Below, in pieces: positions 27,382 through 58,825 of a stretch of DNA of 64,000 nt. Within the stretch, counting starts at the first letter, position 1; each line of letters begins with the position of its first letter. The stretch is from a virus. The stretch is from positions 1 through 64,000 of IMG/VR virus record IMGVR_UViG_3300025108_000028; one strand, given 5' to 3'. Made by a program: the position numbers and the translations under genes. The notes beneath the pieces are model-generated. The model was given only the letters and a program-made list of their open reading frames with translations. It did not search any database and was not told the DNA's origin.

Positions 27382-27552
27382 TTAACGACCCCATTTGGAT
27401 CTTTTGTGTTTCTTATTTGGTTTCCAGTAGTTTTTTTTGGCCCATGCTTTCTTTGATTTAGATGTCTTACATCCACGAGATGATCCACAAGACTGAAGTA
27501 CTGGTCCTCCTATAAATAGGAGTAACATTAAATAAAGGATTTTCTTTTTCAT
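27382..27552 (-). CDS. Small lipoprotein, 56 aa
   Basis: The ATG overlaps the stop of the upstream lipoprotein gene as ATGA. The product has a classic type II signal: basic start MKKKILYLMLLLFIG, then lipobox LQSC (C22). The mature part is only 35 residues, very rich in Lys and aromatic residues (KKAWAKKNYWKPNKK). A lipid-anchored basic peptide on the inner or outer membrane is expected. Phage lipoproteins often block superinfection; that role is inferred. Confidence 0.7.
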   Translation of the reverse strand: MKKKILYLMLLLFIGGPVLQSCGSSRGCKTSKSKKAWAKKNYWKPNKKHKRSKWGR

Positions 27553-27908
27553 AATTTTGCTATTGAAGATTGAACTGTTATTACTACGTATTGTTGACCA
27601 TTATTGATAAGTCTATTATCAAAGAGATAATATAAATCATCTCCTACATACTCTGGTTGTCCATTTGCTCCTGGTACATACCATGGTTTAACTATATATA
27701 CATAGTCATAGTCTGAAGATGTAGGTAACAATGGATAACATTGATTGGTAGGCCAAGCTACATTGTAGTCAACTAATTCTACTTCAGTATCATACTGATA
27801 AATTATGTTAGTACATTGTATTTGTTCTGGTTCAGTAATTTCTAATTCCTCTTTCTGACAAGAGGTGAATGCTAAGGTTAGGCATAAGCCTATGAATAAA
27901 TGTTTCAT
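27549..27908 (-). CDS. Phage-encoded lipoprotein, 119 aa
   Basis: The N-terminus MKHLFIGLCLTLAFTSCQKE carries a signal peptide and lipobox FTSC (C17), so it is exported and lipid-anchored. The mature domain is about 100 residues, acidic, probably beta-rich (VDYNVAWPTNQCYPLLPTSS) with a second cysteine. The charged residues after the Cys (QKEELEIT) do not match the clear SDDD-type surface signal of Bacteroidota. Likely superinfection exclusion or envelope modification, by analogy with other phage lipoproteins. Confidence 0.75.
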   Translation of the reverse strand: MKHLFIGLCLTLAFTSCQKEELEITEPEQIQCTNIIYQYDTEVELVDYNVAWPTNQCYPLLPTSSDYDYVYIVKPWYVPGANGQPEYVGDDLYYLFDNRLINNGQQYVVITVQSSIAKL

Positions 27909-28557: not shown

Positions 28558-28893
28558 CTAAACTGCCTCTACCCATCTCAAATCTGTTTCTTCTCCAGTT
28601 GATAGGTTCATTACTGGATTATCAGACAATCTAAAGCCAGGCATCTTATCACCTCTGTTTAGTTTGCTCTGTAATTGTTTTATTGTAGGATGATCTGCCT
28701 TCATTACTTGACCTGTCTCTGGGTCCATTAGGCTTAACACACCAAAGCTAATGTTGGTCTGCTTTCTACTTGCCACTTTTAAACCGGCTATAGTAGTTTC
28801 AGATTGTACCATTGGCACATCTGATACAATAAGTGTTGCACTGTTAGTATTCTGATTGATACTAAATTTTCTAAAATAAACTGCTGTTTGCAT
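28558..28893 (-). CDS. Unknown protein, paralogue of the 29351 product
   Basis: 111-residue protein that aligns along its whole length with the 29351 product (same VYFRK start, NISFGVLSLMDPETGQVMK, HPTIKQLQSKL, GFRLSDNPV, TGEE and WVE end). The fold is probably beta-rich. No database family comes to mind. It is a monocistronic unit: element C 52 bases before the start, and a strong terminator after the stop. Duplicate genes with dedicated signals imply high or special expression, possibly of an anti-host or DNA-binding protein; function unknown. Confidence 0.7.
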   Translation of the reverse strand: MQTAVYFRKFSINQNTNSATLIVSDVPMVQSETTIAGLKVASRKQTNISFGVLSLMDPETGQVMKADHPTIKQLQSKLNRGDKMPGFRLSDNPVMNLSTGEETDLRWVEAV

Positions 28894-29350: not shown

Positions 29351-29680
29351 TTAGGCTTGTTCAACCCAGAACAGGTTCTGGTTCTCTTCACCAGTCTGTA
29401 GATTAACTACTTTTTGCTCACTTAACCTGAAGCCAGCCATCTCGTCACCAAGGTTGAGCTTTTGCCCAAGAGCTTTGATTGTTGGATGAGTACTCTTCAT
29501 CACCTGATTAGTTTCAGGGTCTATTAGAGATAACACACCAAAGGAGATGTTCCCTTGTGTTCTTGTTGCAACAGACAGACCAGCAAGTGTAGTCTTGTTG
29601 TTTGACATTGGAGCTGAGCTCACGATGATTGTTGCTGAGCCAGTAGACTCATTGATGTTTAGTTTTCTAAAGTAAACCAT
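29351..29680 (-). CDS. Unknown protein, paralogue of the 28558 product
   Basis: 109-residue protein about half identical by eye to the 28558 product, with matching motifs ISFGVLSLIDPETNQVMKS, HPTIKALGQKL and GFRLSEQ. Codon use here is richer in G and C than in the other copy (CTCACC, GGTTCTGG), so the two copies diverged or were acquired separately. First minus-strand gene after the divergent junction; element D lies 69 bases before its start. Confidence 0.7.
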   Translation of the reverse strand: MVYFRKLNINESTGSATIIVSSAPMSNNKTTLAGLSVATRTQGNISFGVLSLIDPETNQVMKSTHPTIKALGQKLNLGDEMAGFRLSEQKVVNLQTGEENQNLFWVEQA

Positions 29681-29933: not shown

Positions 29934-30260
29934 ATGGCAAATTGGGATGACAACAGTGGGGAGGATAATAAAAATGGACTGACTGAAATAGAGCAAATGC
30001 AACTAGACGCAGTAATGCTTGATACGGCATATAACAACTCCTATTTAGTTCTAACTAATCAAATAACATTTGAAGACTTGTTGACTGAAAGATTTACAAA
30101 AGGGGGCGAGGCTGTAATGGCTTTTGATCCAACTGAAGGCCCACTGCAAGAAGAATTAGAAAATATGATTAGTTATTATATTCAAGAAGAAGCTTATGAG
30201 AAGTGTGCTAAACTGCAGAAACTCGTAAATAAGATTTATCCACAAACCATAAATGAGTAA
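29934..30260 (+). CDS. Hypothetical acidic protein, 108 aa; first late gene
   Basis: An acidic, helical protein with no recognised domain (start MANWDDNSGEDNKNG; C-terminal helix EEAYEKCAKLQKLVNKIYP). It opens the plus-strand late block, 253 bases from the divergent 29351 gene. Two bases separate it from the basic-protein cassette. Confidence 0.65.
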   Translation: MANWDDNSGEDNKNGLTEIEQMQLDAVMLDTAYNNSYLVLTNQITFEDLLTERFTKGGEAVMAFDPTEGPLQEELENMISYYIQEEAYEKCAKLQKLVNKIYPQTINE

Positions 30261-30262
30261 CA

Positions 30263-30457
30263 ATGGCAACAAAAAAGAAAAAAAGTACCGTAAATAGTTC
30301 GGGTAATTACACAAAACCGGGAATGCGTAAAAGATTATTTAATTCTATTAAAGCTGGAGGTAAAGGGGGAGCACCTGGACAATGGTCTGCTCGTAAAGCT
30401 CAGATGCTTGCTAAACGTTACAAAGCAAACGGAGGCGGATATAAATCTAAGAAATAA
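30263..30457 (+). CDS. Small basic protein with GQWSARKAQMLAKRYK motif
   Basis: 64 residues, net strongly positive. The segment GGKGGAPGQWSARKAQMLAK followed by RYKANGGGYK is a motif I know from small basic proteins of marine phages. The stop overlaps the next start as TAATG. It belongs to a run of four consecutive basic proteins and may condense or bind DNA. Confidence 0.65.
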   Translation: MATKKKKSTVNSSGNYTKPGMRKRLFNSIKAGGKGGAPGQWSARKAQMLAKRYKANGGGYKSKK

Positions 30458-30579
30458 TGGCTTTACCAAATAAAAGGACTAAAAAGAAATCATCTTGCTG
30501 GACCGGATACGTAAAAAAAGGCGTAAAGAAAAAAGGAAGTAAAACCGTAAATAATTGTGTACGTAAAAAGACAAGGTAA
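30457..30579 (+). CDS. Small basic Cys-containing protein, 40 aa
   Basis: TAATG-coupled on both sides. The 40 residues (SSCWTGYVKKGVKKKGSKTV, then NNCVRKK) match a short motif C-W-x-G-Y-x-x-x-G-x-K-K-K-G...NC found in marine phage proteins. Two cysteines could bind metal or form a disulphide. Very basic, like its neighbours. Confidence 0.65.
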   Translation: MALPNKRTKKKSSCWTGYVKKGVKKKGSKTVNNCVRKKTR

Positions 30580-30821
30580 TGGCAAAAACTAAACAACAGA
30601 AAAGCCTAAGTAGATGGACTAAGCAAAAATGGACAACAGCTTCAGGTAAGAAGAGTTCAGAGACAGGTGAAGTATATGCACCTAAAAAAACTATTGCTAA
30701 GTTAAAAAGCACTAAAAAGGGTAAAGCAAAGTTAGCCGCAGCAAATAAAAAGAAACGTGCAGCTACAAAAAAAGGTAAACAACATGCAAGTCATGGTTTA
30801 CATAAAGGAAAGAAAAGATAA
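30579..30821 (+). CDS. Very basic protein, DUF5872-like, 80 aa
   Basis: Starts with SLSRWTKQKWTTASGKKSSE, the pattern of the DUF5872-type family seen in phages and giant viruses, and ends with Lys/Ala-rich histone-like sequence (KGKAKLAAANKKKRAATKKG). Net charge is extremely positive. DNA binding is probable from composition only. Confidence 0.65.
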   Translation: MAKTKQQKSLSRWTKQKWTTASGKKSSETGEVYAPKKTIAKLKSTKKGKAKLAAANKKKRAATKKGKQHASHGLHKGKKR

Positions 30822-31075
30822 TGGCAACACCAAGAAAAGGAAAAGCAAAAGTCAAAGTAACTAAATCTGGAAAGAAAGTAAGTTACGGACAAGCAGGAAA
30901 AGCTAAAGGTGGTGGACCAAGAGTAAAACCTGGTACATCAAAAGGAGATAGTTACTGTGCTAGAAGTTTAGGTATTAAAAAAAGAGTATCTAAGAAAAAA
31001 AGGAATGATCCTAATACACCAAACAACCTATCTCGTAAAAGGTGGAAATGTTCTGGTGCTAAGTCTAGAAAGTAA
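30821..31075 (+). CDS. Very basic protein, DUF6321-like, 84 aa
   Basis: Contains SYGQAGKAKGGGPRVKPGTS, GDSYCARSLGIKK and DPNTPNNLSRKRWKCSGAKS, a pattern I associate with DUF6321-type small phage proteins. Two cysteines are conserved in that pattern. Fourth in a row of TAATG-coupled basic proteins, consistent with co-translation of DNA-binding virion or condensing proteins. Confidence 0.65.
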   Translation: MATPRKGKAKVKVTKSGKKVSYGQAGKAKGGGPRVKPGTSKGDSYCARSLGIKKRVSKKKRNDPNTPNNLSRKRWKCSGAKSRK

Positions 31076-31573: not shown

Positions 31574-31879
31574 ATGTCAGACGTTAAAAAACTAAATCCA
31601 GAACTTCAGGATAAAGATCCTCAGCTAACAAAAGAAGAGTTGGCTAGCCGTAGAGAAGAAATTACAGCATTTTACAAAGACAACATTCCACATCTTACTG
31701 TTCAAGCAGAATATGAGGAGTTATTAGCTACCATTGATAAAGCTAGAGCAGAAAGACTGCAAGCTCAAATCTTTATGGCACAAGCTGCAGCCCAACAGCA
31801 ACAAGGTGCAGAAGGTCCATCAGAAGATGAAAAAGAGTTTAAAGCAGCAATGGAGAAGGCAGCAACTAATGTAGAATAA
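31574..31879 (+). CDS. Hypothetical helical protein, 101 aa
   Basis: Helical, coiled-coil-like protein with a Glu/Lys-rich first half and an Ala/Gln-rich stretch (FMAQAAAQQQQGAEGPSEDE). No enzymatic motif. It begins a new unit of late genes and is followed one base later by the endolysin. Confidence 0.65.
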   Translation: MSDVKKLNPELQDKDPQLTKEELASRREEITAFYKDNIPHLTVQAEYEELLATIDKARAERLQAQIFMAQAAAQQQQGAEGPSEDEKEFKAAMEKAATNVE

Positions 31880-31880
31880 C

Positions 31881-32801
31881 ATGAGACTGCTAAAAAAAGG
31901 TGATACCGGCAATGATGTAAAAACTTTACAGCAAAAGTTAATGATCTCTCCTGATGGAGTATTTGGACCTGTAACTGAAAAGCATGTAATTAGATTCCAA
32001 CTATCTCACAGTTTATCTGCTGATGGTATTGTAGGGTCTGATACATGGGCTATTTTATTACAAAAAGGACCACAAGTAACAGAAGATATTGATGAAGACA
32101 CTGATTCTTCTAAACAATACTTTAATACTCCCTTTAATCAGATAGTGCATAAACATTATCTTCCAGATGGTGAATACTTAAAAGGACCAATCAAAAATGA
32201 TTATATATTCCTACACCACACAGCAGGTAATAACAATCCTTATAGATGCATTGATCACTGGGGAAGAGATAGCAGAGGAAGAGTAGCTACTGAATTTGTA
32301 TTAGGTGGGATTAACCATAGAAATGGAAATGATGATTATGATGGAGTTATGGTTCAAGCTTTTCCTGAAGGATGTCAAGGTTGGCATCTTGGAAGAACAG
32401 GTTCTGGTTATATGAACCGTCATTCTGTAGGATTAGAAATATGTAACATGGGTTACCTTGATAATAACAAGAGAACATACGTAAAATCATTGTGCCAAAG
32501 AGAACAAGTGATAGGTTTACAAGAAGCTTTTAAAGGTAAACTATTATGGCATGCATACTCTGAGAAACAAATAAAAGAAACGGAAAAGTGGATTAAGTTT
32601 GTTGCTGAAAGAGATCAAATAGATATTAGATTAGGTTTAAAACAATATATCAAAAAGTACGGACCTTCAAAAGGTTTTGATTTTCAGGAAGATGCGTACT
32701 ATGGTAAGGTGAAAGGATTACTGACTCACGGAAATGTTAGAAGTGGTAAGTCAGATATATATCCTCACCCTGACATGGTTGATATGATAATGAGTTTATA
32801 A
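31881..32801 (+). CDS. Endolysin: peptidoglycan-binding domain plus amidase
   Basis: 306 residues. Residues 1-62 form a PG_binding_1 domain (KTLQQKL, SPDGVFGPVTEKHVIRFQ, SADGIVGSDTWAILL). Residues 105-250 are an Amidase_2-type N-acetylmuramoyl-L-alanine amidase with FLHHTAG (zinc His 112), VGLEICN (Glu 187) and LWHAYS. It cleaves the amide link between MurNAc and the stem peptide to lyse the cell. No signal peptide, so it needs a holin, not identified here. The stop overlaps the next start as TAATG. Confidence 0.9.
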   Translation: MRLLKKGDTGNDVKTLQQKLMISPDGVFGPVTEKHVIRFQLSHSLSADGIVGSDTWAILLQKGPQVTEDIDEDTDSSKQYFNTPFNQIVHKHYLPDGEYLKGPIKNDYIFLHHTAGNNNPYRCIDHWGRDSRGRVATEFVLGGINHRNGNDDYDGVMVQAFPEGCQGWHLGRTGSGYMNRHSVGLEICNMGYLDNNKRTYVKSLCQREQVIGLQEAFKGKLLWHAYSEKQIKETEKWIKFVAERDQIDIRLGLKQYIKKYGPSKGFDFQEDAYYGKVKGLLTHGNVRSGKSDIYPHPDMVDMIMSL

Positions 32802-33172
32802 TGGCGTTAGTAAATAAAGTAGATTTAAAATTGAAAGTAAGTATTAATGTATCAATAAAGTATCAAATACTTACATACTGTTTCTTTAATGATATAATAG
32901 TATCTAATTCAGATATTAAGTTTTTATGTGAACTAGCAAAGAATAAAGGCGTAGAGCTTACTAAATTTTGCTTGGACCTAGTATCTAAAAATATATTTAA
33001 AAGCCCGCAATCAGCTAGAAATGCAATAACAAAGGCAGAGAAAAAGGGATTACTGATCAAAGATGGTAATAATAAAAAAACAATTTCTTTAAATGAAGAT
33101 ATTAATGTTCAGTCAGAAGGTTTAGTATTACTTGATTATAAAATCTTAGGCAATGTATCCCAAGTCTCATAA
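32801..33172 (+). CDS. Winged-helix-like protein, 123 aa
   Basis: C-terminal part (SPQSARNAITKAEKKGLLIK then NNKKTISLN) reads as a recognition helix plus wing, typical of small winged-helix DNA-binding proteins. The N-terminal part is a beta strand followed by helices. It overlaps the HU/IHF-like gene by 20 bases, so the two DNA-binding proteins are coupled. Could be a late regulator or genome-organising protein. Confidence 0.55.
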   Translation: MALVNKVDLKLKVSINVSIKYQILTYCFFNDIIVSNSDIKFLCELAKNKGVELTKFCLDLVSKNIFKSPQSARNAITKAEKKGLLIKDGNNKKTISLNEDINVQSEGLVLLDYKILGNVSQVS

Positions 33173-33509
33173 AGATTTTAAAAAAGGTATTGCTGAAGAG
33201 GTAGGAGTACATGAGCAAGTTGTAGATGACTTTATTTCTTTTTATTACTCTAAAGTAAGGAAGTCATTATCAAATATATCATTTCCTAGAGTTTATGTGG
33301 AAGGATTAGGTACGTTTGAACTAAGAATAAAAAAGTTAGAAAATGCTATACTTAAAAACAAGAGTTTGTTGGGTAACATTGCTAAAAGAACTTATAATGG
33401 ATATGCAAAAAGTGAAGATGTATCTAAAAAAATAAAGCAGATGGAAATAGCCATGGATCAAATACAAAAAGATATTAAAGAAAAAAAGAACTTTAGAAAT
33501 GAAAAGTAA
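33153..33509 (+). CDS. HU/IHF-like DNA-binding protein
   Basis: 118 residues. The first 65 follow the HU/IHF pattern: DFKKGIAEEVGVHEQVVDDF, then FYYSKVRKSLSN, then VYVEGLGTFELRIKK with the G-x-GTF turn. The DNA-bending arm is shortened or replaced, and a helical C-terminal extension is added. HU/IHF-like proteins near structural genes are known in crAss-like phages. It overlaps both neighbours by 10-20 bases. Confidence 0.65.
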   Translation: MYPKSHKDFKKGIAEEVGVHEQVVDDFISFYYSKVRKSLSNISFPRVYVEGLGTFELRIKKLENAILKNKSLLGNIAKRTYNGYAKSEDVSKKIKQMEIAMDQIQKDIKEKKNFRNEK

Positions 33510-35559: not shown

Positions 35560-35838
35560 ATGAAAAAACAAGTAGTAATTCCAGTAGGCAAAAGGTTACT
35601 GATAAAAAGAAAAGCAGCAGAAACAAAAACAGCTTCGGGTCTAATCATACCTGAAATAGCACAAAAGAAAGAGTTTAAAGGAACTGTTGTTGGTGTAGGT
35701 GCTGATGTTGCAGAAATTAAAATAGGTGATGAGGTGCAATATGCTGATCACGCTATGCCAACTCCAATGGAACATGATGGTAAAGAACATTTATTATTGC
35801 AATCTGGTGATGTGTTTGCAATTATAAGATATGAGTAG
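35560..35838 (+). CDS. GroES/Cpn10-like co-chaperonin
   Basis: 92 residues matching Cpn10: VVIPVGKRLLIKRK at the start, the mobile-loop region KTASGLIIPEIAQKKEFKGT, VVGVGADVAEIKIGDEVQYA, and a C-terminal LLLQSGDVFAIIRY. The mobile loop IIP motif that contacts GroEL is present. Phage co-chaperonins such as T4 gp31 replace host GroES to fold capsid protein. It overlaps the TerL start by eight bases, so it is made with packaging and capsid proteins. Confidence 0.85.
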   Translation: MKKQVVIPVGKRLLIKRKAAETKTASGLIIPEIAQKKEFKGTVVGVGADVAEIKIGDEVQYADHAMPTPMEHDGKEHLLLQSGDVFAIIRYE

Positions 35839-38023
35839 ATCTATACCTACATATGATTCAGGTAACTGGTCTATAACAGAGTTTGAAAATGATTCTGATT
35901 TTCAGGAATACATATACTCTTTATTCAAAGAGCCAGGTGAATATGACTTTGATGAAACAAGTTATATATTCAATGAAGAGGCTAAAAGATTTAATAAAGA
36001 AGGTTTATATTGTAGTTCTCCTTTTAGATCAAAAGACTTTATGTCTTATTGGGATGATCAGAAGAACAAATGTAGGGAGGGTGTAATTTACAAGAATAAA
36101 GATAAGACTTGGTATTTAACTAGGGATTATTATATGTGGTTGAATTTTCTACCAATATTTGATAAAGAAGAAAAAAAATATGGTTTTGCTAAAGTTAGAG
36201 ATGCACAATATCATATGGCTTTATATGAACTATTAGCAGAGCTAAACAATCAACATTCAGCAATATTAAAAAAACGTCAGATTGCTTCTTCTTATTTCCA
36301 TATGGGTAAGATAATTAATACCTATTGGTTTGAAGAAGGTAGTACGTGTAAAATTGGAGCATCATTAAAAGATTATATTAATGATAAAGGTTCCTGGAAA
36401 TTCCTAGAAGAATACAAAACCTTCTTAAACGAACATACAGCTTGGTATAGACCTAGTAATCCTGAAAAGGTTTTACTATGGCAACAGCAGATAGAAGTTA
36501 AGGTAGGAAACAGAAAAACTTCACGTGGTTTAAAATCTAAAATACAAGGGGCATCATTTGAGAAAAATGCAACAACTGGTGTAGGTGGACCATGTTCATA
36601 CTTCTTTCATGAAGAGGCAGGTATAGCACCAAAAATGATGCAAACTTATGAGTACCTACGTCCTGCAATGTCTTCAGGTATGGTTACTACAGGAATGTTT
36701 ATTGCAGCAGGATCAGTTGGTGATTTGGAACAATGTAATCCCTTGAAGGATATGATACTCAATCCAAGTGCTAATGATATATATGCTGTAGAGACTAACC
36801 TTATGGATGCAGAGGGTACAATAGGTATGGCTGGTTTGTTTATACCAGAGCAATGGTCTATGCCTCCATACATTGATTCTTATGGAAACTCAGAAATAGA
36901 GGAAGCAATTATAGCTATAGACAATGAAAGAGCAAGATGGAAGTCTGAATTAGGACCTGAACAGTTTCAATTAAGAATATCTCAGAAACCAAAAAATATA
37001 GCTGAAGCTTTTGCATATAGAAAAGCATCAGTTTTTCCACAAGGTATATTGTCAAAACAATTAAAAAAGATTGAAGAGAAAGAATATTCCTATGAACTAT
37101 TAGATCTTGAAAAAGAACAAGATGGTATTGTAGCAAAACGTACAACTAAATTACCTATATCTGAGTTTCCAGTTAATAAAAAACAAACAGATAAAACTGG
37201 ATCTATAGTTGTGTGGGAAAGACCTGCTAAGAAAAAACCAGACTTTGGAGCATATTATGCTTCTATTGATCCCGTGTCAGAAGGTAAAACAACAACTTCT
37301 GATTCTTTATGTAGTATATATGTTTACAAAAATGCTACTGAAGTTACTAGAACAACTGTTTCTGGAGATATAGAACAGTTTATAGAAAAAGATAAAATTG
37401 TTGCAGCATGGTGTGGAAGATTTGATGATATAAATAAAACGCATCAAAGGCTAGAATTAATTATAGAATGGTATAATGCATGGACTATTGTTGAGAACAA
37501 TATATCATTGTTTATTCAACATATGATTGCTAGAAAAAAACAAAGATATCTTGTACCTAAACAACAAATACTTTTCTTAAAAGATCTTGGATCTAATAGA
37601 ACAGTTTATCAAGAGTATGGATGGAAGAATACAGGTACTTTATTTAAAAGTCATTTAATATCATATGCAATTGAATTTATAAGAGAAGTCATAGATGAAG
37701 AATTAGATGATGATGGTGGTGTGATGAATCAAACATTGGGTGTAGAAAGAATACCAGATCCTATGCTAATTAAAGAAATGTCTGCGTATTATCCTGGACT
37801 TAACGTGGATAGATTAGTTACGTTTGGTGCACTTGTTGCTTTTGCCAAAATACAACAATCAAATAGAGGTTATAGTAAAAGACGTGAATCAGAAGGAGAA
37901 TCTTTGGTAAATTCAGAAAAAATAAGTAAATTAAAGTATACCAGTGCGTTTAAAAATATAGGTCGTAGGAGATCTGGCTTAGGTGGTAATAGAAGACGCT
38001 CAGGTTTTAAGAATATTAAATAG
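35831..38023 (+). CDS. terL: Large terminase subunit
   Basis: 730 residues. The N-terminal ATPase has a divergent Walker A region (AILKKRQIASSYFHMGK) and Walker B CSYFFHEEAG with catalytic Glu, followed by motif III-like FIAAGSVGD. The C-terminal nuclease domain begins YYASIDPVSEG with the first metal Asp and continues with RLELIIEWYN and ENNISLF. The C-terminus is very basic (RRRSGLGGNRRRSGFK). It pumps DNA into the prohead. The size and Walker B match crAss-like large terminases. It is followed by the portal gene after seven bases. Confidence 0.85.
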   Translation: MSRSIPTYDSGNWSITEFENDSDFQEYIYSLFKEPGEYDFDETSYIFNEEAKRFNKEGLYCSSPFRSKDFMSYWDDQKNKCREGVIYKNKDKTWYLTRDYYMWLNFLPIFDKEEKKYGFAKVRDAQYHMALYELLAELNNQHSAILKKRQIASSYFHMGKIINTYWFEEGSTCKIGASLKDYINDKGSWKFLEEYKTFLNEHTAWYRPSNPEKVLLWQQQIEVKVGNRKTSRGLKSKIQGASFEKNATTGVGGPCSYFFHEEAGIAPKMMQTYEYLRPAMSSGMVTTGMFIAAGSVGDLEQCNPLKDMILNPSANDIYAVETNLMDAEGTIGMAGLFIPEQWSMPPYIDSYGNSEIEEAIIAIDNERARWKSELGPEQFQLRISQKPKNIAEAFAYRKASVFPQGILSKQLKKIEEKEYSYELLDLEKEQDGIVAKRTTKLPISEFPVNKKQTDKTGSIVVWERPAKKKPDFGAYYASIDPVSEGKTTTSDSLCSIYVYKNATEVTRTTVSGDIEQFIEKDKIVAAWCGRFDDINKTHQRLELIIEWYNAWTIVENNISLFIQHMIARKKQRYLVPKQQILFLKDLGSNRTVYQEYGWKNTGTLFKSHLISYAIEFIREVIDEELDDDGGVMNQTLGVERIPDPMLIKEMSAYYPGLNVDRLVTFGALVAFAKIQQSNRGYSKRRESEGESLVNSEKISKLKYTSAFKNIGRRRSGLGGNRRRSGFKNIK

Positions 38024-38030
38024 AATCTAG

Positions 38031-40790
38031 ATGAGAGTATTAAATGCAATGCAACTTAAGAACGGTGCTAAGGCGGAAAGTGGACCAACATTTTCTAGTT
38101 TAACGCAACCTACACAGTTTTTAACATATAAAAAGAAAACTGATGATTGGGCTGCATGGAATCTAGATTGGCTTGAATTGCAGGGTATAGAATTTTTACG
38201 TATCAATTCTAGACGCTTACTTAAAAACTATAAGCTTGCTAAAGGTATTATTGATAAAACAGATTATATTGTAGAGCCAGATAATGACTACAAAGATATG
38301 ATGGATGTTTTAACTGCTGAGAATGAATCAGCATTGGAATTAAAGTTTTATCCAATTGTACCTAATGTAATAAACGTTCTTACAGGTGAGTTTGCTAAAA
38401 GATATTCTAAAGTACAATTTAGAGCTGTTGATGATACATCTTATAATGAGATGCTTGAGCAAAAAAGAGTTCAAATAGAAGAAACACTACTTGCTGAAGC
38501 AGAAACTAATCTAGTTTTAAAGATGGTAGAAATGGGCATGGACCCAAGTTCTAAAGAAGCACAGCAACAACTTAATCCTGAAACATTAAAAACTTTACCG
38601 GAGATAGAAGACTTTTTTAGTAAGTCATATAGAAGTATGGTTGAAGAATGGGCATCTCATCAATTAAATGTAGATGAGGAGAGATTTAAAATGCAGGAGT
38701 TAGAAGAAAGAGGCTTTAGAGATATGCTAATTTCTGATAGAGAGTTTTGGCATTTCCGTATGTTAGAGGATGATTATGATGTTGAGTTATGGAATCCTGT
38801 ATTAACATTTTATCAAAAATCACCTGATCAAAGATATATATCAGATTCAAATTACGTAGGTAAAATAGATTTGATGACTGTATCTGATGTTGTTGATAAG
38901 TATGGATACTTGATGGATGAAAAACAATTAAAGTCTTTGCAAAAGATTTATCCTGCTAGATCAGCACAATATCAAGTTAATGGATATCAAAATGATGGAT
39001 CATATTATGATGCTACAAGATCCCATGAGTGGAATACTCAAATGCCTGGATTATCATACAGACAATACACTAGCAATTATTGGAATGACCCAGCAACTGG
39101 TGGTGATATTATAAGTGAAATATTAGATCAGAGTGAAGACATGACTCCATTGGATGAAGGAAACCTGATGAGAGTATCAACTATATATTGGAAGACTCAA
39201 AGAAGAATAGGTCACTTAACCAAAATAGAATTAGATGGTTCTGTTACTCAAGAGATAATAGATGAGACATTTAAGATAACTGAGAAAGCTGTATATGATA
39301 CATCTATATTCAAAAATAAAACTAAAGAAAACCTTTTACAAGGAGAGCATATAGAATGGATATGGATTAATGAAGTATGGGGTGGTGTTAAAATAGGACC
39401 AAATTTACCAGCAATGTGGAGATCAACAATGGGTGATAACATAAACCCTATTTACGTTGGTATTAATAGAACTAAACCTGGAAGAATACCTTTTCAATTT
39501 AAAGGAAACAATACATTATATGGTTGCAAACTCCCTGTAGAGGGTAGAGTTTTTTCAGACAGAAATACAAAATCTACATCATTAGTAGATTTAATGAAAG
39601 CGTATCAAGTTGGATATAATATGGTTAATAACCAAATTGCTGACATTCTAATAGATGAATTAGGAACAGTAATAATGTTTGATCAGAATGCTTTACCACG
39701 TCACTCTATGGGTGAAGACTGGGGCAAGAACAATTATGCAAAAGCATATGTAGCAATGAAAGATTTCCAAATGCTACCTCTTGATACATCTATTACTAAT
39801 ACTGAGAATGCAACTAACTTTAATCACTATCAAACTCTAAACATGGAGCAGACTAGTAGATTAATGTCTAGAATTCAACTTGCAAATTATTTTAAACAAC
39901 AATGTTTTGATGCAATAGGAATTAACCCACAGCGTCTAGGAGGTGCTGTATCAGCACAAACAGCAACAGGTGTAGTTCAGGCTATGCAACAATCATATGC
40001 ACAAACAGAAATGTACTTTGTACAACACTCAGATCAGTTAATGCCAAGAGTACATCAAATGAGAACTGACTTAGCTCAGTATTATCAAAGCACAAATCCA
40101 AGTGTAAGATTAAGTTATATTTCATCAGAAGCAGAGAAAGTTAACTTTTCAATAAATGGAACTGATTTATTGCTGAGAGACTTTAATATTTTTGCTACAA
40201 CTAAAACAAATCATAGAGCTATCTTAGAAAGTCTTAAACAGATGGCACTACAAAATAATACTACAGGCGCAAGCATTTATGAATTAGGTAATATTGTTAA
40301 AGCTGACTCAATAGCTGAAGTAACAGATATCTTAAAAGATTCACAAGAGCGTGTTGAAAAACAAAGAATGCAAGAAATGCAACAGCAGCAAGAAATGCAA
40401 CAGCAACAAATCCAAGCTAAACAACAAGAAGATCAAATGAAACTTCAAGTTGAAATGGAAGAAAATGATAAAGACAGAAAGAATGACGTTTTATTAGCAG
40501 AAATAAGATCTGCAGGTTATGGATCAATGGTTGATATAAATGAAAACAAAAAATCTGATTATCAAGATGCTATGAAAGATATCAGAGAATCACAGAAGTA
40601 TCAAGATCAAATGAATCTTAAGCGTGAAGAAAATGTTGCTAAATCAGGAATGGAAAAAAATAGATTGCAAGTTGAAAGAGAAAAAATTGCTGCTCAAAAA
40701 AGTATAGCACAGACTAAACTTGATATAGCTAAAGAGAATAAAAACAAATATGACGTATCTTCTACTAAAGAAAAGAAAGATAAAAAATAA
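38031..40790 (+). CDS. Portal protein
   Basis: 919 residues. The position between TerL and the scaffold/MCP genes, and the length, fit the portal. Residues 1-400 contain stem and wing-like mixed segments with many Trp and Tyr; residues 580-760 the helical crown; after about 770 is a Gln/Lys/Glu coiled coil (QEMQQQQEMQQQQIQAKQQE). It forms the 12-mer ring through which DNA is packaged. It is larger than most phage portals, comparable to crAss-like ones. Confidence 0.75.
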   Translation: MRVLNAMQLKNGAKAESGPTFSSLTQPTQFLTYKKKTDDWAAWNLDWLELQGIEFLRINSRRLLKNYKLAKGIIDKTDYIVEPDNDYKDMMDVLTAENESALELKFYPIVPNVINVLTGEFAKRYSKVQFRAVDDTSYNEMLEQKRVQIEETLLAEAETNLVLKMVEMGMDPSSKEAQQQLNPETLKTLPEIEDFFSKSYRSMVEEWASHQLNVDEERFKMQELEERGFRDMLISDREFWHFRMLEDDYDVELWNPVLTFYQKSPDQRYISDSNYVGKIDLMTVSDVVDKYGYLMDEKQLKSLQKIYPARSAQYQVNGYQNDGSYYDATRSHEWNTQMPGLSYRQYTSNYWNDPATGGDIISEILDQSEDMTPLDEGNLMRVSTIYWKTQRRIGHLTKIELDGSVTQEIIDETFKITEKAVYDTSIFKNKTKENLLQGEHIEWIWINEVWGGVKIGPNLPAMWRSTMGDNINPIYVGINRTKPGRIPFQFKGNNTLYGCKLPVEGRVFSDRNTKSTSLVDLMKAYQVGYNMVNNQIADILIDELGTVIMFDQNALPRHSMGEDWGKNNYAKAYVAMKDFQMLPLDTSITNTENATNFNHYQTLNMEQTSRLMSRIQLANYFKQQCFDAIGINPQRLGGAVSAQTATGVVQAMQQSYAQTEMYFVQHSDQLMPRVHQMRTDLAQYYQSTNPSVRLSYISSEAEKVNFSINGTDLLLRDFNIFATTKTNHRAILESLKQMALQNNTTGASIYELGNIVKADSIAEVTDILKDSQERVEKQRMQEMQQQQEMQQQQIQAKQQEDQMKLQVEMEENDKDRKNDVLLAEIRSAGYGSMVDINENKKSDYQDAMKDIRESQKYQDQMNLKREENVAKSGMEKNRLQVEREKIAAQKSIAQTKLDIAKENKNKYDVSSTKEKKDKK

Positions 40791-42270: not shown

Positions 42271-43890
42271 ATGGCAACTCCAGTTTTAAATAATGGGATT
42301 TTCCTACGTGATACAAGCTATAAAGCTAGTTCTCATGTTGATTCTTATCACCTTACCCAAATGCTTGGATCTTCTGAGCCTATGGATATGGGACCAATTG
42401 ATTTATGGGCTATGACCCAAAAGGTAGAAATGCCTTTATATCAAATGGCTTCTTTTGGTGGAAAGAATACAATATTAGTAGACAATGCTAGAGGTGAGTA
42501 CAAGTGGCAAACTCCTATTGCACAAGATCTACCTTACATAGTAGCAGACATTGAACCAGCTAATGATAGCAAAGGTATTGATGGAACTCTATTTAAAATT
42601 AAGATCAACAAAAGAACATTTGGACATGGTGACATTATTACTTATGATAAGTATAATGGACTTGAACTTTACATCACAGCTGATGATATTATCCCAGCAG
42701 GTGACGGTTTTGTTTACACTGTTCAATTAGTTAACAACAACAACGCAGCAATCTTAGATAACAAGTATCTTGCAAAAGGAACTAAGTTCTTTAGAAAAGG
42801 TTCTGCAAGAGGTGAGTATGGAGAAAGATTCTCTGATATTGAAACAGGTTCTGGTTTCCGTGAATTCTACAACTTTGTAGGAGGAGCTGAAGCACATGTA
42901 CACTATTCAGTATCTTCAAGAGCAGACTTAATGATCAAAGGCGGATTGAACGCTGATGGTACAGTACCTGTAACTGAAATTTGGAGAAACTTTAATACTG
43001 ACCCTAACAATCCATCTGTACCTAGTATTGAAGGATTAGTAGCTAATATGGGTAAAGCAGGTGCTAGAGAAGCGTTTGAAAATGGAAGTTTGACAAGAAC
43101 ATTCATTACAAATATGGAAGCAGCACACTTATCTAAAATTGCTACGGATATTGAAACTTACCTTATGTGGGGTAAAGGTGGTAGAATTAAGCAAGATGGA
43201 CCAGATGATATTAGATTATCTGTAGGTTTATGGTCACAGTTAGATAACTCTTTCAAGAGAGTATATAACAAGTCATCATTTACTCTTGACATGTTTAAGT
43301 CTGAGCTTTACAACTTCTATCAAGGTAAAGTTGAATTCAAAGGACCAGACCCACAAAGATCACTTGTTGTACAAACAGGTATTGGTGGTATGCAACTAAT
43401 CAACAAAGCAATTGCTGATGAAGTGTATGGTTCTGGTTTAGTACAAAATGCATCTGACATTGGAGCTGTTAAAGGTTCTGGTATGGATTTAGATTATGGT
43501 TTTGCTTACACAAGCTTTACTATTCCTTTCTTAGCTAACGTTAAGTTTGTATTGAATCCAGCATTTGATAACTTAAATACTAATGACATTGAGAATCCAT
43601 TAATTGACGGAAGACCTCTAAGTTCATATAGCTTTATTATCTTTGATGTTACTGATGAAGGAAATGACAACATTCACTTGTTGAAACTTTCTTGGGATAA
43701 TCAACTTAAGTGGTTCTACCAAAATGGTACTATGGACTACATGGGAAGAACTCAAGGGTTTGCATCTTCTGGTAACTTTAATGGATATAGAGTATACATG
43801 ACTCAGACCATGCCAGCAATATGGGTTAAAGATCCAACCAAAGTTCTTAAAATTGTAATGAGAAACCCTGTTACAGGAGGATCATTCTAA
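42271..43890 (+). CDS. Major capsid protein
   Basis: 539 residues. It follows the scaffold gene, has balanced composition without repeats, and its codon use is more even (many AAC and TTC codons) than neighbours, suggesting high expression. It is followed by a terminator and several head genes. No enzymatic motif. An HK97-fold cannot be proven from sequence by eye; the call rests on gene order, size and codon use. Confidence 0.75.
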   Translation: MATPVLNNGIFLRDTSYKASSHVDSYHLTQMLGSSEPMDMGPIDLWAMTQKVEMPLYQMASFGGKNTILVDNARGEYKWQTPIAQDLPYIVADIEPANDSKGIDGTLFKIKINKRTFGHGDIITYDKYNGLELYITADDIIPAGDGFVYTVQLVNNNNAAILDNKYLAKGTKFFRKGSARGEYGERFSDIETGSGFREFYNFVGGAEAHVHYSVSSRADLMIKGGLNADGTVPVTEIWRNFNTDPNNPSVPSIEGLVANMGKAGAREAFENGSLTRTFITNMEAAHLSKIATDIETYLMWGKGGRIKQDGPDDIRLSVGLWSQLDNSFKRVYNKSSFTLDMFKSELYNFYQGKVEFKGPDPQRSLVVQTGIGGMQLINKAIADEVYGSGLVQNASDIGAVKGSGMDLDYGFAYTSFTIPFLANVKFVLNPAFDNLNTNDIENPLIDGRPLSSYSFIIFDVTDEGNDNIHLLKLSWDNQLKWFYQNGTMDYMGRTQGFASSGNFNGYRVYMTQTMPAIWVKDPTKVLKIVMRNPVTGGSF

Positions 43891-58357: not shown

Positions 58358-58825
58358 ATGGCAAAAAAGAAAAAAGTATCAACTAAGAAAAAGGTATCAA
58401 CTAAGAAAGCAATTAAAAAACCTACTAAGAAAAAGGTAGTAAAAAAGAAAGTTGTTAAAAAAGTAGAGGTGCCTGTAGTTAAAGAGCAGTTATCCCAAAG
58501 ATTTTATTTTGATATTGAGTCTTTAGTTACAGATGGTAATTCTTTAATAAAAGAAATACTATTTACTTACACAGGTTCATTAGTAATACCTAAATCATTA
58601 AAATCATCATATGAAAAGAAAAGTGTTACTGTACATGGATCATACATTGTAAAAGATGGTGATGAAGGAATTGTTACAACACAAGATTATAAATCATTAT
58701 CTAAAAATGATGTAAAAGTATTTTTAGTAAAGTATTTACGGGATGATTATATAACAGGAATGCAGAACATAATTAAGAAAGATTTATTACCAGACACAAA
58801 TTTAGTTGTTGATCTTCCTTGGTAG
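58358..58825 (+). CDS. Lys-rich N-terminus hypothetical protein, 155 aa
   Basis: The first 42 residues are a Lys/Thr/Val repeat (KKKVSTKKKVSTKKAIKKPT) that resembles histone H1-like tails. The remaining 110 residues are a compact globular region (RFYFDIESLVTDGNSLIKEI). It may bind DNA or a charged virion surface. Follows the giant fibre after 17 bases. Confidence 0.65.
   Translation: MAKKKKVSTKKKVSTKKAIKKPTKKKVVKKKVVKKVEVPVVKEQLSQRFYFDIESLVTDGNSLIKEILFTYTGSLVIPKSLKSSYEKKSVTVHGSYIVKDGDEGIVTTQDYKSLSKNDVKVFLVKYLRDDYITGMQNIIKKDLLPDTNLVVDLPW

Follow-up and report, generated by a model that had tools for sequence, protein, structure and literature searches.

The window, the 64-kb stretch of DNA analyzed here, belongs to a 78.9-kb virus record, and its terminase is ∼25% identical to the terminases of crAss-like and Flavobacterium phages. 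A run of four small genes, p1 to p4, lies in a rightward block with the following layout:

29934-30260, plus strand: acidic 108-aa ORF, first gene of the rightward block and upstream edge of the cassette slot
30263-30457, plus strand: p1, 64 aa, net charge +18, no Cys; apparent N-terminal half of a DUF5872-type domain (GQWSARKAQMLAKRYK..GGGYK)
30457-30579, plus strand: p2, 40 aa, net charge +15, two Cys (CWTGY..KKKG..NNC)
30579-30821, plus strand: p3, 80 aa, net charge +25, no Cys; apparent C-terminal half of a DUF5872-type domain
30821-31075, plus strand: p4, 84 aa, net charge +26, two invariant Cys (DSYCARS...RKRWKC); DUF6321-like
31574-31879, plus strand: acidic 101-aa ORF, downstream slot edge in the terminase-anchored comparison
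31881-32801, plus strand: endolysin just downstream of the cassette, peptidoglycan binding (PF01471, E 4e-13) plus amidase (PF01510, E 7e-10)
35831-38023, plus strand (that of the cassette): crAss-like terminase large subunit (phrog_6681, E 9e-56)
38031-40790, rightward block: portal, recognized by match
42271-43890, rightward block: major head protein, recognized by match

The first-pass annotation described four consecutive Lys/Arg-rich genes linked by overlaps, and this description holds. TAATG is present at the p1/p2, p2/p3, and p3/p4 junctions, and TAAATG lies between p4 and the next ORF. The summed net charge of the products is +84, with Lys/Arg making up 28%–38% of residues. When 91 greedily chosen ORFs of the window were ranked by net charge per residue (median ∼0), p3 (0.31), p4 (0.31), and p1 (0.28) came first, second, and fourth, with rank five at 0.15; p2 (15/40 = 0.375) was left out of this ranking because a longer antisense ORF was kept. 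The four genes form by far the most basic run of the window. At least 595 viral stretches hold a relative of p1, at least 529 one of p3, and at least 594 one of p4, which indicates that these are real genes. The cassette had also been placed at the very beginning of the late block. The block is indeed late and structural, as it holds the terminase, portal, and major head protein genes, but it is opened by the acidic ORF at 29934-30260, so that the cassette comprises genes two to five.

Other features of the window include an ORF of the late block (33153-33509) with a weak HU/IHF-like match (E 0.028), a more classical candidate for a nucleoid protein than the cassette. The terminase gene begins inside a GroES-like co-chaperonin gene (35560-35838; phrog_3188, E 1e-17), which has a further, weak match to a head-morphogenesis PHROG. 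On the late strand, the product of 58358-58825 has a 35-residue Lys/Val-rich tail (KKKV...) followed by a non-basic part and has no PHROG match. Two paralogues on the early (minus) strand, 28558-28893 and 29351-29680, share 66% identity over 106 aa and have no PHROG match; a terminator-like hairpin (29342-29315) follows the second of them on its strand, in a scan that covered the end of that gene. Also on the minus strand, the overlapping small genes 27382-27552 and 27549-27908 encode lipoprotein-like signal sequences (LQSC and FTSC), and the product of the former is itself very basic (net +17 in 56 aa).

To place the cassette relative to other genes, 44 contigs of at least 25 kb were surveyed, of which 16 have a Terminase_6N match (28 do not) and 18 a PolA match (26 do not). 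Cassette and terminase share a strand in all 16 scorable contigs, at a median distance of 3.4 kb, and the cassette is on the strand opposite PolA in 15 of 18; contigs L036, L048, and L060 look related, so these counts are not fully independent. A similar picture is obtained from isolates. The module immediately follows the major capsid gene in P-SCSP1q, sits between scaffold and capsid in HTVC022P, precedes the terminase by 0.6 kb in CRP-7, lies upstream of it in HMO-2011 and CRP-1, and is found beside virion genes in S-TIM5. MaMV-DC and S-EIV1 are exceptions, with modules away from any obvious structural block and near replication or metabolic genes. Endolysin or amidase genes are also close: less than 1 kb away in the window, directly downstream in HTVC033P, and one gene from p3 in CRP-1.

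The DUF5872-like motif noted in the first-pass annotation resides in p3, which aligns to positions 49–110 of the DUF5872 profile (PF19197) with E 7.4e-4 and 20.5 bits, under the curated cut-off of 27.5 bits; p1 gave no match to this profile. Against PHROGs, p1 matches phrog_17747 (E 2e-33) and p3 matches phrog_14910 (E 5e-15). A fused 140-aa ORF on another viral contig (L194:5824-6243) is recognized as DUF5872 above the cut-off (E 2.5e-10, 41.4 bits), and in it phrog_17747 matches residues 11–56 with phrog_14910 alongside, in tandem. Since both PHROGs and DUF5872 coincide in a single ORF, p1 and p3 are, on these profile matches, two halves of one DUF5872 domain. In the window the domain is split over two genes with p2 between them, and either half alone falls under the cut-off. 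A model of the fusion (77.4, pTM 0.48) gave no fold match at E 0.001 or better.

p2 and p4, in turn, correspond to segments inside or at the C terminus of long phage proteins. For p2, the matches fall in the interior of phrogs 4359, 10346, and 727, and a p2 HMM matches the T4-GC119 proteins of P-SSM2, S-SM1, S-SM2, and S-RIM8 as well as S-TIM5 gp066 (E 1e-5 to 1e-11); tblastn with p2, and with HTVC033P gp37, returned nothing useful. In the four T4-GC119 proteins of T4-like cyanophages that were checked (P-SSM2, S-SM1, S-SM2, and S-RIM8), a p2-like module is followed by a p4-like module in the same protein. Alignment of p4 with the DUF6321-bearing family by hhalign gave a probability of 95.7 (E 8.6e-9) over 38 aligned columns. 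p4 itself does not match the DUF6321 profile (PF19846; cut-off 28.5 bits), and 10 of 18 aligned relatives do, the best at E 0.0042. Homology of p4 to the DUF6321 part of T4-GC119 is supported by these comparisons, and the DUF6321 resemblance proposed earlier was right but weak. In contrast to DUF6321 and the cyanophage T4-GC119 family (phrog_727), p4 stands alone as an 84-aa protein, has an N-terminal part of its own, and lies under the Pfam cut-off. The p4-like gene of HTVC033P matches 550 of 50,697 phage records, mostly cyanophages.

Related arrangements were seen in other contigs. Pelagibacter phage HTVC033P (gp42–gp36, L082:5995-7340) carries seven successive small basic genes, including p1-, p3-, GLYANIHAKRKR-, and p4-like modules. 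A p4 gene amid other basic modules (L252:8001-8264) is present on a contig that was binned as a marine Euryarchaeota MAG and is perhaps an archaeal virus. Extra two-Cys basic modules (KKDACYKKVKSRY...KCRKVG and WF..GK..KCG) were found at L269:4425-5240 and L277:38537-40024; these occur as fused parts of T4-GC119 and as separate proteins in CRP-7.

The composition of the cassette was examined in a sample chosen by terminase, independently of the cassette. It comprised 81 loci (80 plus the window), of which 31 cover the full slot, with the acidic gene at one edge and the 101-aa gene or endolysin at the other, and the remaining 50 were dropped because one slot edge was not found. The hmmsearch runs were made against small ORF sets with thresholds of E<1e-3 or 1e-4, and with Z 1000 for the terminase-slot and T4-GC119 module searches. 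Within the 31 slots, p3 occurs 25 times, p1 24, b96 (another basic module, absent from the window) 21, x55 9, p4 8, p2 6, and glw twice, and two slots hold none. These two show that the modules are not universally needed. All four of p1–p4 are found together in 3 of 31 loci, namely the window, a near-identical contig, and one other. Gene order varies as well (p1-p2-p3-p4, p4-p1-p2-p3, and p1-x55-p3-p4). Co-occurrence of the families, which had been suggested as a check, is upheld for p1 and p3, with both present in 24 loci, p3 alone in one, and neither in six (P 1e-5), but p4 is often found without p1 (57 of 80 p4-anchored loci, some of them because the contigs are short). Most likely p1 and p3 act together as one split DUF5872 domain.

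The distribution of p4 and b96 is mutually exclusive. In the 31 terminase-anchored slots, p4 is present in 8, b96 in 21, both in none, and neither in 2 (P 6e-6). Among 157 loci baited with p1 or p3 the corresponding counts are 21, 100, 0, and 36 (P 3e-11), and in 251 loci baited with p4, p1, or p3, a set that contains genome contigs, short contigs, and in some cases more than one stretch of a contig, p4 was found in 112, b96 in 100, and both in none. On a terminase tree of the 29 loci with p4 or b96, the state needs four changes, every one forced by well supported branches. As judged from this tree, p4 and b96 have replaced one another at one slot no fewer than four times. Taken as a whole, the sequence comparisons describe p1–p4 as a local assortment from an exchangeable kit that unrelated marine viruses mix, split, and fuse, rather than a fixed set.

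The b96 module has head-related affinities. Seven of 10 members match phrog_220, annotated "minor head protein and DNA pilot" (best E 2.9e-7), 7 of 10 match DUF5754 below the cut-off (best E 1.5e-4), and 2 of 10 match PF23980, a putative tail tube initiator family. In S-CBS2 it lies between capsid and decoration genes, and in vB_LenP_ICBM2 it adjoins lysis and internal-virion genes. DUF5754, or Tlr6F, is described in the passages available of PMC4642659 and PMC12220804 as conserved in polinton-like viruses (PLVs), virophages, Megavirales, and some phages, with its function given as unknown. The likeness to Tlr6F of polinton-like and giant viruses is on the side of b96; p4 has no sequence match to DUF5754/Tlr6F and no detectable homology to b96. 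A single family uniting p4 and b96, which look alike by eye (YCARS...W versus FxARH...W), was rejected on hhalign probabilities of 1.9 and 8.0, the former being that of p4 against b96.

Analysis of p4 and its 80 best viral relatives gave a mean amino-acid identity of 0.89, which as the best of the scan describes the closest set; the wider set of 112 gives 0.73. Over all pairs of the 81 sequences, 4-fold degenerate sites differ at 0.62, close to the saturation value of 0.68. With ∼89% identity next to nearly saturated silent sites, specific residues must be conserved and not just charge. In the wider sets, identity is 0.79 for p1 and 0.63 for p3, again with silent sites near saturation. The comparison of silent and encoded positions indicates strong purifying selection on p4, and likewise on p1 and p3. 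Most contigs of the 80 relatives have no other tested neighbor gene in common with the window. Recent horizontal transfer as the source of the similarity is rejected for most pairs by the same silent-site values, with exceptions among very close relatives (L002 and L003, for example). The same two cysteine columns are present in 112 of 112 p4 sequences, and likewise in 11 p2 sequences, and p1 and p3 are almost devoid of cysteine. The strict pair in p2 and p4 suggests a metal or disulfide linkage.

The predicted structure of p4 (mean pLDDT 73.8; 74 to 53 from best to worst model) is reliable only beyond about residue 41, with predicted helices at 40–55, 58–62, and 67–74, and the first ∼35 residues are basic and of low confidence. 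Such a model suggests that p4 is not simply a polycation but has a small folded head behind a basic tail. Comparison of the model with PDB folds gave no match, and its only significant fold matches were three viral proteins with 49%–57% sequence identity over the aligned part. PDB sequence searches with p1, p3, p4, and P-SCSP1q gp18 found nothing credible, and neither these nor the p4 fold searches returned a match indicating DNA binding. In Pfam, p1–p4 have no histone, HU, or IHF match.

Evidence bearing on the virion comes from T4-GC119. In the GenBank records of P-SSM2 and S-SM2 this protein carries the note "similar to Synechococcus phage S-SM1 protein." Of the features seen, this note tags 14 of 136 for P-SSM2 and 11 of 46 for S-SM2. 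The note is also attached to gp4, gp14, gp21, gp25, gp53, T4-GC15, and T4-GC190, all named as detected in S-SM1 virions in passages of PMC3037559, a study with a table of 41 proteins, and it is absent from gp16, gp17, gp22, DNA polymerase, UvsX, and others in these records. Since the tagged genes coincide with detected virion proteins, we infer that the note marks orthologues of proteins detected in S-SM1 virions. It is an imperfect marker, as gp48 and gp5 are also among the detected proteins in those passages (PMC3037559) but the gp48 and gp5-like genes of P-SSM2 do not carry it. The S-SM1 record itself labels SSM1_115 (T4-GC119) just "hypothetical protein." Set against the passages of PMC3037559, the GenBank notes suggest, without amounting to proof, that mass spectrometry of S-SM1 virions picked up T4-GC119. 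A literature search for Cobavirus virion proteomics found nothing.

The late position, the basic tails, the presence of kin modules in proteins labelled as components of the head or virion, and a precedent in T4 together point to internal head proteins. According to the passages available of PMC9026906, T4 IPI, IPII, and IPIII are small, basic proteins; each head contains hundreds of copies, and at low salt they bind DNA. p1–p4 are of comparable size and charge and are encoded in the late/structural block, but have no demonstrated sequence relation to the T4 proteins. Marine tailed phages would express the basic modules late, the products would enter the head during assembly, and they would travel with the DNA as internal head proteins in a role like that of IPI–IPIII, with p1 and p3 contributing one split domain. 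We hold this account, including packaging, contact with DNA, and ejection, to be somewhat more probable than not. Because the p4 slot is taken by b96 in sister phages, both should serve the same partner, either the packaged genome or the shell interior. Residue-level conservation combined with this substitution would mean that each module recognizes something specific and shared, such as the geometry of packaged DNA or the inner shell.

The first-pass annotation had proposed nucleoid or genome-condensing proteins packaged in the virion like a histone-like set. Late, virion-associated basic proteins remain the best-supported part of that proposal, given the terminase-linked position on many unrelated contigs, the kin modules in head or structural families, and the apparent presence of T4-GC119 in S-SM1 virions; a condensing, histone-like set is unsupported in the form proposed. 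In the strict sense, the set would neutralize and condense the genome, in keeping with the total charge and Lys/Arg content of the four products and with the N-terminal ∼35 residues of p4, which in the model look like a disordered tail. However, conservation of residues near silent-site saturation exceeds what charge neutralization needs, the C-terminal half of p4 is predicted to be folded, and the set is variable and missing in 2 of 31 relatives. Nor does a histone-like set agree with the rarity of the complete quartet, with p1 and p3 as halves of one domain, or with the exchangeability of p4. We regard strict condensation as unlikely.

A still less probable explanation is that the proteins are injected and act early, guarding the incoming genome or hitting a host target, with DNA binding serving for carriage only. 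T4 offers a precedent in IPI, which acts against restriction (passages of PMC9026906). The module content differs between close relatives, as in counter-defence sets. Counter-defence proteins usually diverge fast, however, and p4 is nearly frozen across phages in unrelated contexts. Late cytoplasmic factors that act on replicated DNA or on translation, as nucleoid or ribosome factors, and are left unpackaged would be equally compatible with the late position and basic charge, and the proximity to replication or metabolic genes in S-EIV1 and MaMV-DC agrees with them, but kin modules lie within proteins marked as head or virion proteins, and we consider such a role very improbable. Disruptins are cationic lysis peptides that damage the outer membrane. 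A disruptin-like function would suit the endolysin genes that adjoin the cassette in the window, HTVC033P, and CRP-1, but it is the least credible of all, since the modules sit between scaffold, capsid, and tail genes in T7-like phages, kin modules are fused into T4-GC119, and a DUF5872 protein is listed (PMC12085832, in the passages available) for an algal giant virus, which does not have to cross a bacterial outer membrane.

Returning to internal head proteins, a broader and rather improbable extension can be put forward. Splittable, fusible, and interchangeable mini-domains (DUF5872 halves, the paired-Cys modules of p2 and p4, and the DUF5754/Tlr6F type) might line the packaged genome in unrelated tailed phages and in algal giant and polinton-like viruses, with disulfides that would keep the core locked while in oxidizing seawater and let it open once inside the reducing host, in a protamine-like manner.

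Databases already list the families themselves as unknowns, and PMC4642659 and PMC12220804, in the passages available, point out Tlr6F as conserved across PLVs, virophages, giant viruses, and phages. Full-text literature searches, covering titles, abstracts, and passages, found no report of the split DUF5872 domain, the p4/b96 exclusion, or the shared kit; in them DUF6321 was unmentioned and DUF5872 hardly mentioned. Modules of the p1, p3, and p4 type are very common uncharacterized proteins of marine viruses, as seen from the phage records matched by the HTVC033P gene and from the ∼530–595 or more viral stretches for each. The occurrence of DUF5872, DUF6321, and DUF5754/Tlr6F-like modules in one exchangeable cassette would tie three families, one of them long noted across giant viruses and phages, to one testable place, the virion interior.
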